Positions 18,065-24,684 of a DNA stretch of 47,809 nucleotides are shown piece by piece. A model generated the notes under the pieces. The model had not been told where the DNA came from and did not search any database. It was given only the letters and a program-made list of their open reading frames with translations. Position 1 is the first letter of the stretch, and each line of letters begins with the position of its first letter. This stretch comes from Hydrogenophaga sp. (lineage in GTDB: Bacteria; Pseudomonadota; Gammaproteobacteria; Burkholderiales; Burkholderiaceae_C): contig NZ_JAOASO010000083.1 of NCBI RefSeq assembly GCF_030158645.1, positions 1 to 47,809 on the forward strand, in the 5' to 3' direction. The translations under genes and the position numbers were made by a program.

Positions 18065-18574
18065 ATGGAAACACTCGATAAGTTCGACATCACCATCCTG
18101 CAAGAACTGCAAAGCGACGGCCGCCTCACCAACGCCGAGCTGGCCCAGCGCGTGGGCCTGTCGGCTGCACCTTGCTGGCGACGTGTGCGCGCGCTTGAAG
18201 AAGCCGGCTTCATCCGCGGCTACCGCGCCGAGATCGACCGCGAAAAGATCGGCCTGGGCGTGCTGGCCTTCGTGCGGCTGGACGCCGACCGCAACAGCGG
18301 CGACGTGACGCGCAAGCTGGAAAACGCGATCCGCGAGATTCCGGAGGTCGTCTCGTGCCACTACATCAGCGGCTCCGGTACGTTTGAACTGCAGGTGGTG
18401 AGCCGCGACCTCAACCACTTCAGCCAGTTCGCCCGCGAGGTCCTGCTCAACCTGCCCAACGTGAAAGACCTGCACACGAGTTTTTCGCTCGGCGAAGTGA
18501 AGTCGGGGAGTGCACTTCCGTTGTCGCACCTGTTGGCTAAAAGTACGAGCACGGCAAACCATCCGAAAACTTGA
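18065..18574 (+). CDS. Lrp/AsnC family transcriptional regulator
   Basis: A 169-residue regulator. The N-terminal helix-turn-helix is at about 5-60 (LDKFDITILQELQSDGRLTN, then LAQRVGLSAAPCWRRVRALE). The C-terminal RAM/ACT-like ligand-binding domain runs from about 70 to 150. The ATG at 18065 is preceded by a good GAGGGAGA ribosome site and fits the family's start. It is divergent from the aryl-pyruvate oxidoreductase, so an amino acid or 2-oxoacid effector is likely. Whether it also reaches the secretion locus 200 bp downstream on the same strand is unknown. Confidence 0.93.
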   Translation: METLDKFDITILQELQSDGRLTNAELAQRVGLSAAPCWRRVRALEEAGFIRGYRAEIDREKIGLGVLAFVRLDADRNSGDVTRKLENAIREIPEVVSCHYISGSGTFELQVVSRDLNHFSQFAREVLLNLPNVKDLHTSFSLGEVKSGSALPLSHLLAKSTSTANHPKT

Positions 18575-18668
18575 GGACATTTGGAACCATTCGTCTCAGC
18601 TTTTAGACCGCTGGGTAACAAAGTCGCCGTAAGTCTTTGAGATATGTGCATTTTTTCCGTTTCTTTTC

Positions 18669-18697
18669 TTGCCTTCACACGTGTCGTTTCGTAACAT
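18669..18697 (+). promoter_or_regulatory. Candidate sigma70 promoter of the secreted-subunit locus
   Basis: TTGCCT (18669-18674) and TAACAT (18692-18697) are separated by 17 bp, inside an AT-richer leader that is unlike its surroundings. The spacer contains the 8-bp palindrome ACACGTGT. Each hexamer has about four matches to consensus, so this is only a candidate. It would give a leader of about 70 bases before the first subunit gene. Confidence 0.35.
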
Positions 18698-18775
18698 CGC
18701 CCCATCGAATCCCGTGGAGCAGGTACCTGAAAGTCCTCAGCCCACGCCCCATCACCTCCACCAGAAGGAAACGTC

Positions 18776-19372
18776 GTGAACAAATCCCTGCTCCTGAAAA
18801 CCACCCTGGCCGTGGCCATGGCCACCCCGCTGCTGGCGTCGGCCGAGTCGCAGCTGATCACAGCACCCACCGGCAGCGCGGTCGCGCGCCTGGACTTCCG
18901 CGTCATCGTTCCCCGCGTGCTGTTCCTCGGCGTGGGTACCGGTGCTGGCGGCGTCGTCAACAACACCACCGTTGACACGGTGACCTTCGACTACACCACC
19001 AATGCGGCCGCTGTTGGCACGGGCGCAGCAGCCGCCGTGATTTCGGGCGCCGTGGTGCCGGTGCGAGTGATCGGCAACAACGGTCAGATCACCCTCACGG
19101 CAACCACCACCGGCGCGCTGACCAACGGCACCTCAGACACCATCCAGTGGTCGGAGATCTCCGCAGTTTCCAGCCTGCCCCTCACGCTGCCCAGCCCCAT
19201 CATCCCGAACTCGGGTGTGGGTACCTCCAGCAACGTGACCCTTTCCTCCGGCACCAAGATCACCGACCGCTCGGCCAACTGGACCTTCAGCTACGCCAAC
19301 ACGGCCGTGGTGGCTCCTGGCACTTACGGCACGACCAACGGCCGCGTGACCTATACCGCGGCCATGCCCTGA
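18776..19372 (+). CDS. Secreted subunit A, probable major pilin-like protein of the 18776-24009 locus
   Basis: A 198-residue exported protein I cannot place in a named family. The signal peptide is residues 1-23 (cut LLASA/ESQ). The mature part is rich in Thr, Gly, Ala and Val with alternating beta-type sequence, has no cysteine, and shares blocks with its neighbours. ESQLIT plus LDFRVIVP (24-46) matches the protein at 23536. DTIQWSEIS (121-129) and FSYANTAV...GTY...GRVTYT (171-194) match the protein at 19532. The conserved C-terminal strand block is where chaperone-usher subunits bind their chaperone. GTG start with GAAGGAAA upstream. A strong hairpin follows at 19421, suggesting extra expression of this first gene. 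Confidence 0.75.
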   Translation: MNKSLLLKTTLAVAMATPLLASAESQLITAPTGSAVARLDFRVIVPRVLFLGVGTGAGGVVNNTTVDTVTFDYTTNAAAVGTGAAAAVISGAVVPVRVIGNNGQITLTATTTGALTNGTSDTIQWSEISAVSSLPLTLPSPIIPNSGVGTSSNVTLSSGTKITDRSANWTFSYANTAVVAPGTYGTTNGRVTYTAAMP

Positions 19373-19420
19373 GTCTGTCGGTCGTTCTGAAGCAGCGGCA
19401 AGCCCGTTGCTACCGACTTC

Positions 19421-19450
19421 ACGGAGGGCTTGCACAGCGCAGCCCTCCGT
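19421..19450 (+). terminator. Hairpin between subunit A and the rest of the locus (partial terminator or mRNA stabiliser)
   Basis: A perfect 10-bp stem ACGGAGGGCT / AGCCCTCCGT with a 10-base loop, followed by CGTCATTTC, not a full T-run. It lies 48 bases after the stop of subunit A. Such incomplete terminators after a major-subunit gene are known from fimbrial operons, where they raise its mRNA above that of assembly genes. Confidence 0.6.
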
Positions 19451-19531
19451 CGTCATTTCAGGTCCTTGCACTTCCATTCCATCCAGTGCGCCTCGGGAGA
19501 TCCCTTGCACAGCCCCCGTCACAATGACCCC

Positions 19532-20188
19532 ATGAAGTGCAACCTTCGCCGCATCACGGCCCGCCAAGCAGCAAGCGTCTGCCTGGTTGTGCTGGTCTGT
19601 GCGGACATCGTTGCGGCACATGCCTGGTCCTTGGGTGTCACATCGGGTGACCGCCGTCTGTTCCTGCACGTGGGCAACGGCGCGTTGAGCGGATCCAGCG
19701 GAACGCTCAACGGCACCGCCGGCACCAGCGGCATCGTCAACACCGTGCAAGTCACTGTGCCGGTGGCCCAACTGGGCAATGGCACCGCCTTGGGAATGAC
19801 CAGCGACAGCACCCAAAGTGTCAGTCGGTATGGTGACGGCAACAACACATGCCCGACACCCAGCAGCCAGGTGATGGTCGGTGCCGGATTCCGCCGCAAT
19901 GGCGGCTCAAACAGCGCCACGCTGACGGTGGCATCACCCGCCTCACTGGTCAACGCCAGTGGAGACACCATACCGTTCACCCAAATCAGCTGGACCGTCT
20001 CCGCCCCTGGCAGTGGCGTGCCCAATGTGATCCCGGCGGGCACTTTCAACGGCGGCACCCAGACACTGGCGACGCTGCCTGGCAACACCTACATCGAAAA
20101 CTGCCACACCTTCAGCTACGCCAACAGCGCCGTGCGCGCAGCCGGCACCTACAGCGGCCGGGTGACTTACACCCTGGCGAGCCCATGA
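19532..20188 (+). CDS. Secreted subunit B (paralogue of subunit A)
   Basis: A 218-residue exported protein of unknown family. The signal peptide is about residues 1-31, with an arginine-rich start (KCNLRRITARQ) and a hydrophobic stretch to VAAHA. Blocks shared with subunit A are RRLFLHVGNG (compare PRVLFLGVGTG), DTIPFTQIS (145-153), and the C-terminal FSYANSAV...GTYSGRVTYT (194-214). Unlike A it has two mature cysteines (107 and 191) that could form a disulfide. I took the ATG at 19532. Its stop overlaps the next start as ATGA, so translation of the next gene is probably coupled. Minor subunit or tip protein is the likeliest role. Confidence 0.72.
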   Translation: MKCNLRRITARQAASVCLVVLVCADIVAAHAWSLGVTSGDRRLFLHVGNGALSGSSGTLNGTAGTSGIVNTVQVTVPVAQLGNGTALGMTSDSTQSVSRYGDGNNTCPTPSSQVMVGAGFRRNGGSNSATLTVASPASLVNASGDTIPFTQISWTVSAPGSGVPNVIPAGTFNGGTQTLATLPGNTYIENCHTFSYANSAVRAAGTYSGRVTYTLASP

Positions 20189-20646
20189 CGATGCGAGCAA
20201 GCTTCATTGCAGTGCTCGCCAGCGGGCTCCTGGTCGGGACGGCCTGGGCCAACCCCCACCGGCTGGACGACTCGCTGAGCCACACCGTGCCGCCCAATGT
20301 GCAAATGCAGTGGCTTCCATTGAAATCGGGCCAGCAATACGCTGGCGGCATGGAAGCCTGGGTGCGCGTCAACATCCGCATCGACACGCGCAACTGGATG
20401 GGCCGCAGCGGGCGCATCTACATGGTCTTGCCGCGCGACGAGGCCTCCAACATCGAAGCCGTCTGGACCACCCAGGGGCGCTTGCAACCCGGGCGCCTGG
20501 TGTCGGGCGAACGCACCCTGGTTTTCGCCGGTACCATCCCCGGCGCCACCCTGGAGGACCAGATGCAGGTGCGCCTGCGCTCCAACGCCGACTGGTCATC
20601 GAACAGCCGGCGCCTGAACTTCCACTTCGAACTCGACGCCGACTGA
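20185..20646 (+). CDS. Small secreted beta-rich protein of the locus (subunit C)
   Basis: A 153-residue exported protein, not recognised. The signal peptide is residues 1-22 (cut GTAWA/NPH). The mature part alternates hydrophobic and polar residues as in an Ig-like sandwich and ends in LNFHFELDAD, with no cysteine. It does not carry the LDFR or FSYAN blocks of subunits A, B and D, so it may be an adaptor, anchor or second chaperone-like piece. It overlaps subunit B by ATGA and ends seven bases before the chaperone gene, so it belongs to the same transcript. Confidence 0.7.
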   Translation: MTMRASFIAVLASGLLVGTAWANPHRLDDSLSHTVPPNVQMQWLPLKSGQQYAGGMEAWVRVNIRIDTRNWMGRSGRIYMVLPRDEASNIEAVWTTQGRLQPGRLVSGERTLVFAGTIPGATLEDQMQVRLRSNADWSSNSRRLNFHFELDAD

Positions 20647-20653
20647 CCCTGCC

Positions 20654-21484
20654 ATGCCTTCTGCGCTTTCAACATCTCTGCTTCGCGCATCGAAGGCGCT
20701 ACCGGGTTGGGTGTTCGCTGGTCTTCTGGCGTTCGCACCACTGACCGGACAGGCCCAGGGCTTTGCCGCTTACATCACGCCACCGCGTTTTGAAGTGCAG
20801 GCCACTGCGGGCCAGTCACTGCGCCAGGTGCTTGAAATCCAGCATGTCGGCCCGCAAAGAGGCAACTACCGCATCTACACCACCGACTGGATACTCAATC
20901 CCGACAATTCGGTGACGTTCAGCGACGAACTGGCCGCCGACAGCTGCCGTCCCTGGGTGGCCATCGAGCGACGCGAGTTGGTGATCGAGGCCGGCGCGCG
21001 CTACCGCTACCGGTTCGAAATCACCCCCCCGGCCGGCACACCGGCCCGCGAATGCCGCTTTGCGATCATGGTGGAAGGCCTTGAGCCCGCTCAGGTGCAA
21101 GGCAGTCTGAATTTCCCGGTGGGTGGTCGCATCGGCGTCATCGTCTATGCCGCCATTGGCGACGCAGCACCTCAGCTGGAAATTGCTGGCACCCGTGTGG
21201 TGGTGGCCGCCGGCAAACCGGTCGCGGTGGTCGATGTGCGAAACCGCGGCAACGCACACGGCCGACTTGAAGGTTTCGTCAACGGCACCGACGCGGACGG
21301 AGCGCGCTTCGAGATGGCACCTTCGGACTTGCCCATCCTGCCAGGCGAAACACGCGCCGTGCCCATCAGTCCGATCGTCGAAGATGGGAAGACCGCCCCC
21401 GCTGTCCGTTTCCCACTGGTGGTCAGGGGCAAACTGGAGTGGGGCAAGAACAGCGTGCCGCTGGACGCGCGATTTGCTCCATGA
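20654..21484 (+). CDS. PapD-like periplasmic pilus-assembly chaperone
   Basis: A 276-residue protein with a signal peptide (about 1-35, ending LTGQAQ). It appears to have two Ig-like domains. The first opens with AAYITPPRFEVQATAG, a typical chaperone A1 strand with a conserved basic residue, and continues to about 150. A second domain (about 175-276) follows RIGVIVYAAIGD. PapD-family chaperones cap unfolded subunits in the periplasm and deliver them to an outer-membrane usher. Two cysteines sit in the first domain (DSCRPW and RECRF) and may pair. It lies between the subunit genes and the barrel gene and overlaps the latter by ATGA. Similarity is at fold and motif level, not close identity. 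Confidence 0.75.
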   Translation: MPSALSTSLLRASKALPGWVFAGLLAFAPLTGQAQGFAAYITPPRFEVQATAGQSLRQVLEIQHVGPQRGNYRIYTTDWILNPDNSVTFSDELAADSCRPWVAIERRELVIEAGARYRYRFEITPPAGTPARECRFAIMVEGLEPAQVQGSLNFPVGGRIGVIVYAAIGDAAPQLEIAGTRVVVAAGKPVAVVDVRNRGNAHGRLEGFVNGTDADGARFEMAPSDLPILPGETRAVPISPIVEDGKTAPAVRFPLVVRGKLEWGKNSVPLDARFAP

Positions 21485-23466
21485 GCGCAGGGTTGGCACG
21501 CCGGACCCGTTGCCTGCTGGTTTTTCTAGGTGCATCCCTGACCCCGCTGCTCTCTTGGGCGCAGGCCGTGCAATCCGCTGCCACGGCTCCCCAACCCGCA
21601 CCGGCATACGTGGACCGGGTCATGGAGAACCTCCCACCCGAAGCGCTGGACGACAGTGACAAAGACGAATACAGCCGAGAGGGCCTGCCGCGTTTCCTGC
21701 GGCTGGAGACACGGCTGGGCACTCAGCCCTTTGATCAGGCCCAAAGCGTACGCATCGGCTACGGCATTTATGGGCTTCTGGAAACGCCCAACCACGGCAC
21801 GCTGTCGATTGACGGCGCCTACGCGCCGCGCGACAGCAGTGGCACGCTCACGCTGCGCCAACGCGCCATGCCCATCGAAGGTGGCTGGTTCACCAGCAAC
21901 GAACTCGGCGTGATCACCGCACCGGCACCCGACATCACACGTTTGCCCGCGCGGATCTACCTGCCCTCGGCCATTCTTCGGGGCCTGAGCACCGAATGGG
22001 AAAACCCGGAAGGGGGATTGCAACTGCAGGCCTCCACCGGTGAACCTGGGCGGCTTGACTTCCAGCCCGCCAACGGTTTTCGGCAATTGCCGGGTCGCCG
22101 CACCACGCTGGGGGGTCAATGGCGCATCAACGCGTCCGGTGCCGATGTGCTCTCGCGCCAGGGCTGGACGGCCGCGCTGCGGCATGAAGATGCACGCGGC
22201 GTCTCGACGCTGGACAACCCGCAGCAGGCGGGTGACTTCGTCGACGCCAACTCCACGCTGCTGGCCCTGCGCCACGAAAGCGGGGAGTACCAGATTCAGG
22301 GTCAGCTGATGAGCACGCGAGCGAGCAACGTTCAGGGCGCGCGCAACGGTTTCTGGATCGACAGCGAGTGGGAAGATGGCCCTCGCAGGCACGGCTTGGG
22401 TGCCTACCGGCTCGAGCCCGATCTGACATGGGCCAACCTGCCAGTGGCCAGCGACATCGTCGGCGCTTACGTCCGGTCGAGCTGGCGCACCCGCCAGTGG
22501 TCGGCCGAAGGTTCGCTGGACTGGCTGGATTCCATCAGTGGCCGCACCACCAATGGCGTCTTCGCCACCGGTTCCGCGCGCTGGCGCATCAACCGCGACC
22601 ACACGCTGGGCGCTGGAACAGCGCTGCGCAGCTTCAATGGCACCGCCTGGAGCACCTACGGGGATTGGCGCTTCCAGAACGGCTGGGGCACCAGCGGCCT
22701 GCGCGTGGAGTTCACAGGAGGTGAAGGCCAGGGCGACTCGCGCGCGCTGATCTGGGATCAGGAGTGGGTGGTTCCGCAGGGCTGGGCACTGTCGACCAGC
22801 CTGGGCTACACCGCGTACAGCGCCACCAGCAGCCTGCCGGCCGAAAACACCTCGACGGGCGCCATCAGCGGCGCGGTGCCGCTGACCAGCAGATCCAGCA
22901 TGCGCGGCAACTTCAGTGTCGAGCGCAACGACAGCGGACAGGTTCGTCACAGCCTGAACGTGGGTGCCAACTGGCGCCTGGACAAGCACTGGAGCATGGA
23001 AGGCAACTACAACCGGACCAACGGCCGCAGCCGTTTCACCCCATCGATCGACCCGCTGGCACCGCTTGGGTTGGTCGTTCCGGACAACGACCGGTCCTTC
23101 TATGTGGTGGTGCGGTACGAGTTCGAAGCGGGCAGCCGCAACGTCCCGCTGGGCGGCAAGCCCGCCGACGGCGGTGGCCGAATCGAAGGCACGGTGTACT
23201 TCGATGCCAACCGCACCGGCACGCAGGAAGCCAGCGAAACTGGCGTGCCCAACGTCACGGTGTTCCTGGACAACCGCTATGCCGTGCGTACCGACAGCCA
23301 GGGCCGCTTCGAGTTTCCCTTCGTGGCCAGCGGGCCGCGCACGGTGAGCGTGCGCGGGGATACCCTGCCACTGCCATGGAACGTGGTCGACCAAGGGCAG
23401 ACCAAAGTGGACGTCCGTCTGCGCGAGAACGTGACCCTGACCATTCCAGTGCAGCGCAACGAATAG
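21481..23466 (+). CDS. Usher-like outer-membrane beta-barrel with C-terminal Cna-B-like domain
   Basis: A 661-residue exported protein. The signal peptide is about 1-28 (LLSWAQA). Residues about 60-555 are made of alternating strands rich in Trp, Tyr, Gly, Arg and Ser with short polar turns, as in a large outer-membrane barrel. The stretch ends VVVRYEFEAGSRNVPLGG. Residues about 565-625 (IEGTVYFDANRTGTQEASE, then GVPNVTVFLDN and TDSQGRFEF) look like a Cna-B/SdrD-B or carboxypeptidase-regulatory prealbumin fold. Classical ushers are about 800-870 residues with separate PapC N, plug and C domains. I cannot see these, so it is a reduced or divergent usher, or a new exporter. The ATG overlaps the chaperone stop. 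Confidence 0.7.
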   Translation: MSAGLARRTRCLLVFLGASLTPLLSWAQAVQSAATAPQPAPAYVDRVMENLPPEALDDSDKDEYSREGLPRFLRLETRLGTQPFDQAQSVRIGYGIYGLLETPNHGTLSIDGAYAPRDSSGTLTLRQRAMPIEGGWFTSNELGVITAPAPDITRLPARIYLPSAILRGLSTEWENPEGGLQLQASTGEPGRLDFQPANGFRQLPGRRTTLGGQWRINASGADVLSRQGWTAALRHEDARGVSTLDNPQQAGDFVDANSTLLALRHESGEYQIQGQLMSTRASNVQGARNGFWIDSEWEDGPRRHGLGAYRLEPDLTWANLPVASDIVGAYVRSSWRTRQWSAEGSLDWLDSISGRTTNGVFATGSARWRINRDHTLGAGTALRSFNGTAWSTYGDWRFQNGWGTSGLRVEFTGGEGQGDSRALIWDQEWVVPQGWALSTSLGYTAYSATSSLPAENTSTGAISGAVPLTSRSSMRGNFSVERNDSGQVRHSLNVGANWRLDKHWSMEGNYNRTNGRSRFTPSIDPLAPLGLVVPDNDRSFYVVVRYEFEAGSRNVPLGGKPADGGGRIEGTVYFDANRTGTQEASETGVPNVTVFLDNRYAVRTDSQGRFEFPFVASGPRTVSVRGDTLPLPWNVVDQGQTKVDVRLRENVTLTIPVQRNE

Positions 23467-23535
23467 CCGGCGCGGAGCTCTTCAGAACCGCGAGCCAGGG
23501 TCTCAAGTTCACGCACAGGGGGCCGATAGTGGGAC

Positions 23536-24009
23536 ATGCCCCGCTCATCGCGCCCCTTCCTTGTCTGTCTGACCTCCAGCGTGCTGCTCATGACGCCGAT
23601 GCCTGGTATGGGCGAGAGCCTGATGATCACGCAGGGCAACTCAGGCGCTTCGCTGGACTTCCGCATCATCATTCCGCCCATCATGCGGGTGCTGGAGAAC
23701 AGCCATCCCCGGCGGCTTGAAGCGCTCGCCGATGGCCGGGTCAGCGCCCAGCAGCGTCTGGTGGTGCTGTCGAACATGAAGGGGGGGTTCTGCGTCTCGC
23801 TGCGACGCACCGCGGTCGAGCTCGGCACCTGGGAGTTGCAAACCGCCCCGCAAAGCGGAATCCAGCTCAGCCCGGCGGCCGACGGCTACAGCCTGTGCGG
23901 CACCCGGCCGGGGCGCTACACCGTGGTGCTGCAGCACCAGTTTGGCACCAGCGACGGCAGCGCCAATGCCCTGAACTGGCCGGTGCAGACCGACATCTCG
24001 GCCATCTGA
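23536..24009 (+). CDS. Secreted subunit D (related to subunit A)
   Basis: A 157-residue exported protein, not assigned to a family. The signal peptide is about 1-26 (LMTPMPGMG). The mature start ESLMIT...SGASLDFRIIIPPIMRVL matches subunit A's ESQLIT...ARLDFRVIVPRVLFL position by position, strong evidence of common descent. Two cysteines (86 and 121) could pair. The C-terminus lacks the FSYAN block but has PGRYTVVLQHQFG, which may be the equivalent strand. It starts 69 bp after the barrel gene and ends the locus. It may be the terminator, anchor or tip subunit. Confidence 0.7.
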   Translation: MPRSSRPFLVCLTSSVLLMTPMPGMGESLMITQGNSGASLDFRIIIPPIMRVLENSHPRRLEALADGRVSAQQRLVVLSNMKGGFCVSLRRTAVELGTWELQTAPQSGIQLSPAADGYSLCGTRPGRYTVVLQHQFGTSDGSANALNWPVQTDISAI

Positions 24010-24315
24010 GCGGACCACCTGCCGCCGCAGGACCAGGCATTGACACCAAAGGAAGCGGCGCGCCCTTCGATGATGAGCGCGTGGTTTTCAAGGCGGCGCT
24101 CGTTGCGCTGAGAGAGCGCGGGCAAGACGGCTTGCGACACAGACCCGGTCGGGTGCTCCCCGCCCAAGCCGCACCGACCCCGCTTCAAGCGGGCGCTTCG
24201 TTCCTTCATGGGCGACTGGGTGAGGTGGTGGCAGATGCTGACGGGACGGGTGGGATGGCAGGGTGGCGTGGCCACAGCATTGGCGGGCGATCAGGGGAGG
24301 CTTCCCCCGCACCGC
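24010..24315. other. Non-coding gap after the secretion locus
   Basis: About 306 bp between convergent genes. No frame here looks coding. A short palindrome CCCGCTT-C-AAGCGGG lies at 24179-24193 and might form a weak terminator, but it lacks a T-run on either strand. Nothing else is recognised. Confidence 0.5.
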
Positions 24316-24684
24316 TCAAGCCTTCACCTCAACCACCTGCTCGAAACCGCCGAAGATCATGCGCTTGCCGTCGAACGGCATGGGTGGGTTGCCGGGTGTG
24401 GACGGGTCCATGCGCGGGTCTTCCATCATCTGCTTCATGCCGGCGTCCCGCGTGGCCTTGTCCGGCCATTCGACCCACGAAAAGGCCACTGTTTCCTCGG
24501 CCGTGGCCTGGACTGCGCGGCGGAAATCGGTGACTTTGCCGTCGGGAACGTCGTCACCCCAACCCTCGATCACGCGGATGGCGCCCAGCTCGATGAACAA
24601 GGTGTCGAAATGACGCGCGTGCTCGATGAACTTCTGCTTGTTGGCGGTGGGGACCGCGATCACGAAACCGTCGATGTAGGACAT
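24316..24684 (-). CDS. DUF1428 family protein (YbaA-like)
   Basis: A 122-residue cytoplasmic protein that opens with MSYIDGFVIAVPTANKQKF and contains VAFSWVEWPDKATRDAGMKQ, both typical of the DUF1428 (dimeric alpha-beta barrel) family. Its function is unknown. The ATG at 24684 is preceded by AGGAGTGAAGCC, a clear ribosome site, which decides against the longer open frame. It stands alone, downstream of mltA on the same strand. Confidence 0.9.
   Translation of the reverse strand: MSYIDGFVIAVPTANKQKFIEHARHFDTLFIELGAIRVIEGWGDDVPDGKVTDFRRAVQATAEETVAFSWVEWPDKATRDAGMKQMMEDPRMDPSTPGNPPMPFDGKRMIFGGFEQVVEVKA

Follow-up and report, generated by a model that had tools for sequence, protein, structure and literature searches.

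A probable divergent chaperone-usher-type locus with a reduced usher-like barrel in Hydrogenophaga

How much of an usher does a chaperone-usher system need? Ushers are described (PMC8410936) as five-domain proteins in which the N-terminal domain (NTD), the plug and the C-terminal domains (CTD1 and CTD2) each have a step in assembly to perform. The question is raised by a six-gene locus (g1 to g6) in a 47,809-nucleotide stretch of Hydrogenophaga sp. DNA (contig NZ_JAOASO010000083.1; hereafter the window), which an earlier note, made from the letters alone, had taken for a reduced or novel relative of chaperone-usher operons. Re-reading of the frames bears out six consecutive plus-strand genes, with ATGA overlaps between g2 and g3 and between g4 and g5, and all six proteins have signal-peptide-like starts as judged by eye. 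The homology of g4, the fold of g1 and the match between usher CTD1 and the C-terminal domain of g5 support the proposal of a divergent branch. None of the outcomes that the note had named as refuting it came up: g5 and 16 relatives match no usher family, g1 and its kin match no described pilin family, and synteny is conserved. We consider it probable that the locus encodes a system of the chaperone-usher type, whose product would be a thin surface fibre.

The profile of the g4 family (13 rows) aligns over both domains with that of 17 known chaperones, namely FimC, EcpB and 15 family matches from the order, at an hhalign probability of 97.5% and an E value of 5.6e-12 for this single comparison. 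Controls were clear: the reversed profile reached 0.3% and column shuffles at most 1.2% in 60/60 cases, the locus's pilin and barrel profiles scored 19% (signal peptide) and 0.4% against the same chaperones, and the g4 family scored 1.1% against ushers. Alternative master rows gave 97.7, 97.4 and 97.4% (L046, L054, EcpB) and 96.9 and 96.1% (FimC, L050); scores this close do not settle where g4 belongs among the chaperone branches. A plain hidden Markov model (HMM) of the known chaperones likewise matches g4 relatives in loci L045 (2.3e-11) and L129 (2.7e-8; both E values for a small frame set). These matches, and the cross-matches in L127-L130, fall outside the alignments that gave the profiles, except that the pilin alignment includes the window's g6; the L044-L046 frames matched by the locus profiles are mostly rows of those same alignments, as is, for the most part, the L046 chaperone matched by the known-chaperone HMM.

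In one profile alignment, the superfamily-invariant proline (Pro59 of CsuC; PMC4654587) corresponds to Arg106 of g4, beside an invariant Glu105, and the position of Arg89, which the same paper places in strand F of non-classical chaperones, falls two residues after the invariant Arg135, in the same segment; Cys98 and Cys134 are kept in 13/13 family rows. Judged from its sequence, g4 is a PapD-superfamily chaperone of two immunoglobulin-like domains. The labels first given to g4 (PapD-like) and g5 (barrel) hold in substance, though in searches of the six proteins against Pfam and NCBIfam no Pfam model reached its cut-off on any of them, the rows below cut-off being SdrD_B-type domains, PapD_N on the second domain of g4 (21.2 bits against a cut-off of 23) and chance-level rows.

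One alternative would make the locus a Gram-negative counterpart of the WxL systems, in which g4, with its two domains, would bind the wall in the manner of WxLIP while the subunits coated the surface. Part of g4 is weakly similar to WxL-interacting proteins: 4/13 members of its family (20654-21484 in the window) match WxLIP_PGBD, at best with E 0.0065, and the g4 profile, run against PDB sequences, returned no chaperone and WxLIP1 at E 0.35, a likeness that may reflect a far kinship of the two folds. We nevertheless regard this alternative as highly improbable, given that the chaperone match spans both g4 domains with clear controls and that we know of no outer-membrane barrel in WxL systems and no barrel partner of WxL-interacting proteins.

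The barrel of g5, as predicted by AF2, has 26 strands, against the 24 given for ushers in PMC8410936, and a Foldseek search with the g5 model places ushers at the head of the list, with MtrB level with FimD. Although the model of the C-terminal domain has low confidence, its sequence profile aligns with CTD1 of known ushers (FimD, EcpC and 10 family matches from the order); other SdrD_B stretches gave 1.2-2.2% against the same domain, and an SdrD_B control profile scored 22.8 against at most 16.2 for its own 60 shuffles, a signal that is weak rather than nil. The remaining usher domains have no space in the chain. Only about 43 residues separate the signal peptide (placed by eye) from the barrel, so that g5 is without a periplasmic NTD; at most 21 residues lie between consecutive long strands, so that it is without a plug; and the chain ends 28 residues after the PLPW motif (28-30 in 17/17 rows of the g5 family), leaving space for one C-terminal domain and hence none for CTD2. 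The term reduced is therefore apt. Neither by its domains nor by PF00577 is g5 a member of the usher family: this model matches none of the 17 family members (g5 and 16 relatives) at E 1 and nothing in the window's own genome (92.78% complete), and a PDB sequence search with g5 brought up Sdr-type domains, a related adhesin and nothing else.

Ahead of the barrel, a Y-x-D/E-R/K/Q pattern is kept in 27/27 rows of one g5 alignment and 16/17 of another, the exception being the L046 row, which is cut after YxDR and whose full frame shows the motif; in the window's g5 this short tail is a candidate chaperone-docking site. Two g5 relatives (L044 6768-9236 and L046 8477-11104) carry an N-terminal extension before YxDR that looks LysM/FimV-like by eye, and the usher HMM matches neither.

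Could this be a chaperone-usher operon of the ordinary archaic or alternative sort, with normal usher domains that had escaped sequence searches? The PapD relationship of g4, whose scores do not place it in any one branch, would suit that reading, but the three short distances within g5 and the uniform chain end in all 17 rows of its family make it improbable. We think it similarly unlikely that the g5 barrel belongs to the porins or receptors (MtrB-like) and merely has an SdrD_B domain attached, with g4 and the subunits forming a periplasmic or surface complex other than a fibre: ushers head the structural list, CTD1 of ushers can be aligned with the C-terminal domain of g5 but hardly with other SdrD_B stretches, and in 19/19 fetched loci g4 adjoins g5 in the company of at least one pilin-like subunit.

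The earlier description of three mutually related proteins stands for g1 and g2, which are 34% identical over 186 residues, and fails for g6, which is not related along its length: g1 and g6 have in common only about the first 48 residues, comprising the signal peptide and a donor-strand-like motif (LDFRIIIPP in g6), and g2 and g6 do not match at E 1. The g1 model has a chaperone-usher pilin-like fold; individual scores are weak to modest and the structure-match lists consistent, with 45/50 rows of one listing counted by eye as such and the remaining 5 being glycosidases. The best VIA rows are CfaE, CsuA/B and CfaB, and nine VIA rows that begin at g1 residue 31-35 begin at residue 1-7 of the pilin chain (end points only). 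Residues 34-46 of g1 resemble a donor-strand extension, a segment absent from g2, the stretch being gapped in 6/6 g2 rows of the joint alignment. Sequence searches with the g1 family found no described pilin family in Pfam and nothing in PDB sequences; hhalign gave 12% against known pilins, from the signal peptide only and thus without a sequence-profile link, and 0.2% against ushers. One wrong-frame row (L046:6630-7185) was present in the alignment used for these Pfam, PDB and hhalign comparisons, for the pilin control against chaperones and for the HMM cross-matching, and absent from the one behind the g1 model. Behind g1, a hairpin stem is kept in 8/14 loci (the window and L002-L014; the g1-g2 gaps of L040, L044 and L046 were left out of the count), whereas the g5-g6 gap and the 54 bases 3' of g6 hold no significant hairpin. 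In known operons, too, a hairpin stands behind the major-pilin gene.

A scan of genome contigs with g5 returned 13 loci, by title 10 from Hydrogenophaga and one each from Comamonadaceae, Burkholderiaceae and Pseudotabrizicola; the last (L002) is possibly a misbinned Hydrogenophaga contig, since the genes on its flanks share 94-98% identity with those of the window. The survey of synteny found g1-g2-g3-g4-g5 collinear in 13/13 of these loci with g6 next in 11/13, an order that argues that the gene set is more than chance; in L003 and L011 the main copy is not followed by a g6 match. Directly upstream of the main locus, L011 (2452-4936; g3-, g1-, g4- and g6-like frames) and L014 (241-4958; g5-, g2-, g1-, g4- and g6-like frames) hold portions of another, diverged set of these genes, 28-43% identical. 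Among six more distant loci (L040, L041, L043-L046), tblastn found g4 and g5 together in 6/6 and g6 in none; g1 was not found by tblastn in L040, whose stretch begins close to g2, g3 of L045 was found by HMM only, and the barrel gene of L044-L046 runs on the opposite strand from the subunits.

Within the genus, the g5 profile matches 53/67 genomes (39/44 of good quality), 47/67 with at least 700 bits; five genomes match the C-terminal part at 93-128 bits, and one matches through an SdrD_B-type domain only (these last three counts by eye). Across the order it matches 21/300 genomes: 6 at 355 bits or more (counted by eye), 3 more (75-109 bits) that align by tblastn to nearly all of g5 at 24-26% identity, and 12 with short SdrD_B matches. 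Across the phylum 53/398 genomes match, with an alignment of barrel length in only 3, and the g4 profile matches 5/299, 2 of them Hydrogenophaga. Protein searches at E 0.001 gave 265 relatives of g5 (from 7992 scored candidates only), 2008 of g4 and 968 of g1, the best 120 of each being listed. Within the reach of these samples, therefore, the g5 gene is common in Hydrogenophaga and sporadic elsewhere in the order.

Compared with archaic and alternative pili (Csu, ECP, CFA/I), the locus has the same two-domain chaperone, pilin-like subunits, large outer-membrane barrel and clustered genes, but its subunits have no sequence link to theirs, the chaperone signature residues are not clearly kept, its usher-like protein is shorn of NTD, plug and CTD2, and g3 is an extra gene. 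With the classical type 1 and P pili it shares the usher barrels at the top of the Foldseek list, the CTD1-like domain and the hairpin; it differs in its predicted strand number, in the absence of 3/5 usher domains and in leaving PF00577 unmatched. Another class of the same phylum provides a chaperone/usher pair (L128 3797-7924) in which the g4 profile and that of the known chaperones both find the chaperone, and the g5 and usher profiles both find the CTD1 segment; its 875-residue usher frame differs from g5 in having N-terminal, plug-like and further C-terminal parts (by usher profile and by eye), and the Pfam usher model does not match it. A standard chaperone and usher with PF00345 and PF00577 matches (L046 12216-15748) adjoin the reduced-usher locus of L046. 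No description of a system like that of the window was found in the literature searched.

Table 1. Features of the six-gene locus, in window coordinates.
Feature	Position	Strand	Description
g1	18776-19372	+	198 aa, GTG start; predicted major pilin, C-terminal end ...VTYTAAMP
g1 residues 34-46	18875..18913	+	SAVARLDFRVIVP; donor-strand-like N-terminal extension, alternating L39/F41/V43/V45
Hairpin 3' of g1	19421..19450	+	Probable partial terminator; -22.1 kcal/mol, z -4.97
g2	19532-20188	+	218 aa; pilin-like subunit without N-terminal extension, predicted tip/first subunit
g3	20185-20646	+	153 aa; conserved, putatively exported protein of no known family (13-row alignment)
g4	20654-21484	+	276 aa; two-domain PapD-superfamily periplasmic chaperone (hhalign, HMM cross-matches)
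g5	21481-23466	+	661 aa; usher-like outer-membrane barrel and CTD1-like domain
g5 residues 43-46	21607..21618	+	YVDR; kept motif in short N-terminal tail, candidate chaperone dock
g5 residues 72-549	21694..23127	+	26-strand barrel predicted by AF2
g5 residues 566-661	23176..23463	+	SdrD_B/CTD1-like domain with PLPW motif; low model confidence
g6	23536-24009	+	157 aa; putatively exported protein, possible base/terminator subunit

On one side the locus (Table 1) is flanked by genes for an Lrp/AsnC-type regulator and an oxidoreductase with POR and DUF6537 domains, of the indolepyruvate type, and on the other by DUF1428, MltA, response regulator and sensor kinase genes. The regulator and oxidoreductase genes are present upstream in 10/13 related loci; in L011 and L014 the remains of the second copy set take their place, and L004 starts just 5' of g1, at a contig end. 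A scan of 18400-24400 for sigma-70 promoters found none.

These features suggest a scheme in which exported g1 subunits, each with an incomplete immunoglobulin-like fold, would be held in the periplasm by g4 and delivered to g5, perhaps by way of the g5 tail motif. On polymerisation the next subunit's N-terminal extension would take the place of the chaperone's strand, an exchange that may supply the energy as it does in known systems (PMC8410936), while the growing fibre would be held at the g5 C-terminal domain and leave through the barrel. Since g2 is without an N-terminal extension, it would start the fibre at the tip; g1 would form the shaft, the hairpin favouring its own message, and g6 may serve as the fibre's end or anchor. 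With its barrel and one CTD1-like domain, g5 probably works like an usher, with recruitment perhaps falling to its short YVDR tail and gating to something else.

A candidate for that something else, closing the pore or replacing NTD and CTD2, may be g3, whose gene stands beside that of g4 in all the loci in which it could be looked for. It has no Pfam match over cut-off and one chance-level row in a PDB sequence search, and hhalign gave 3.1%, 0.4% and 0.9% against known chaperones, ushers and pilins. That g3 is a detached plug or recruiting domain acting in trans, with the YVDR tail as the sole built-in chaperone dock, is a speculative and rather doubtful proposal; if true, it would make the usher a modular machine and not a single five-domain protein. 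More broadly, a natural usher-like barrel that has a single C-terminal domain, neighbours a PapD-type chaperone and occurs in most sampled genomes of a genus would put to the test how much of the assembly cycle can be dispensed with, and the locus would add to the chaperone-usher systems a branch that standard family searches have overlooked.
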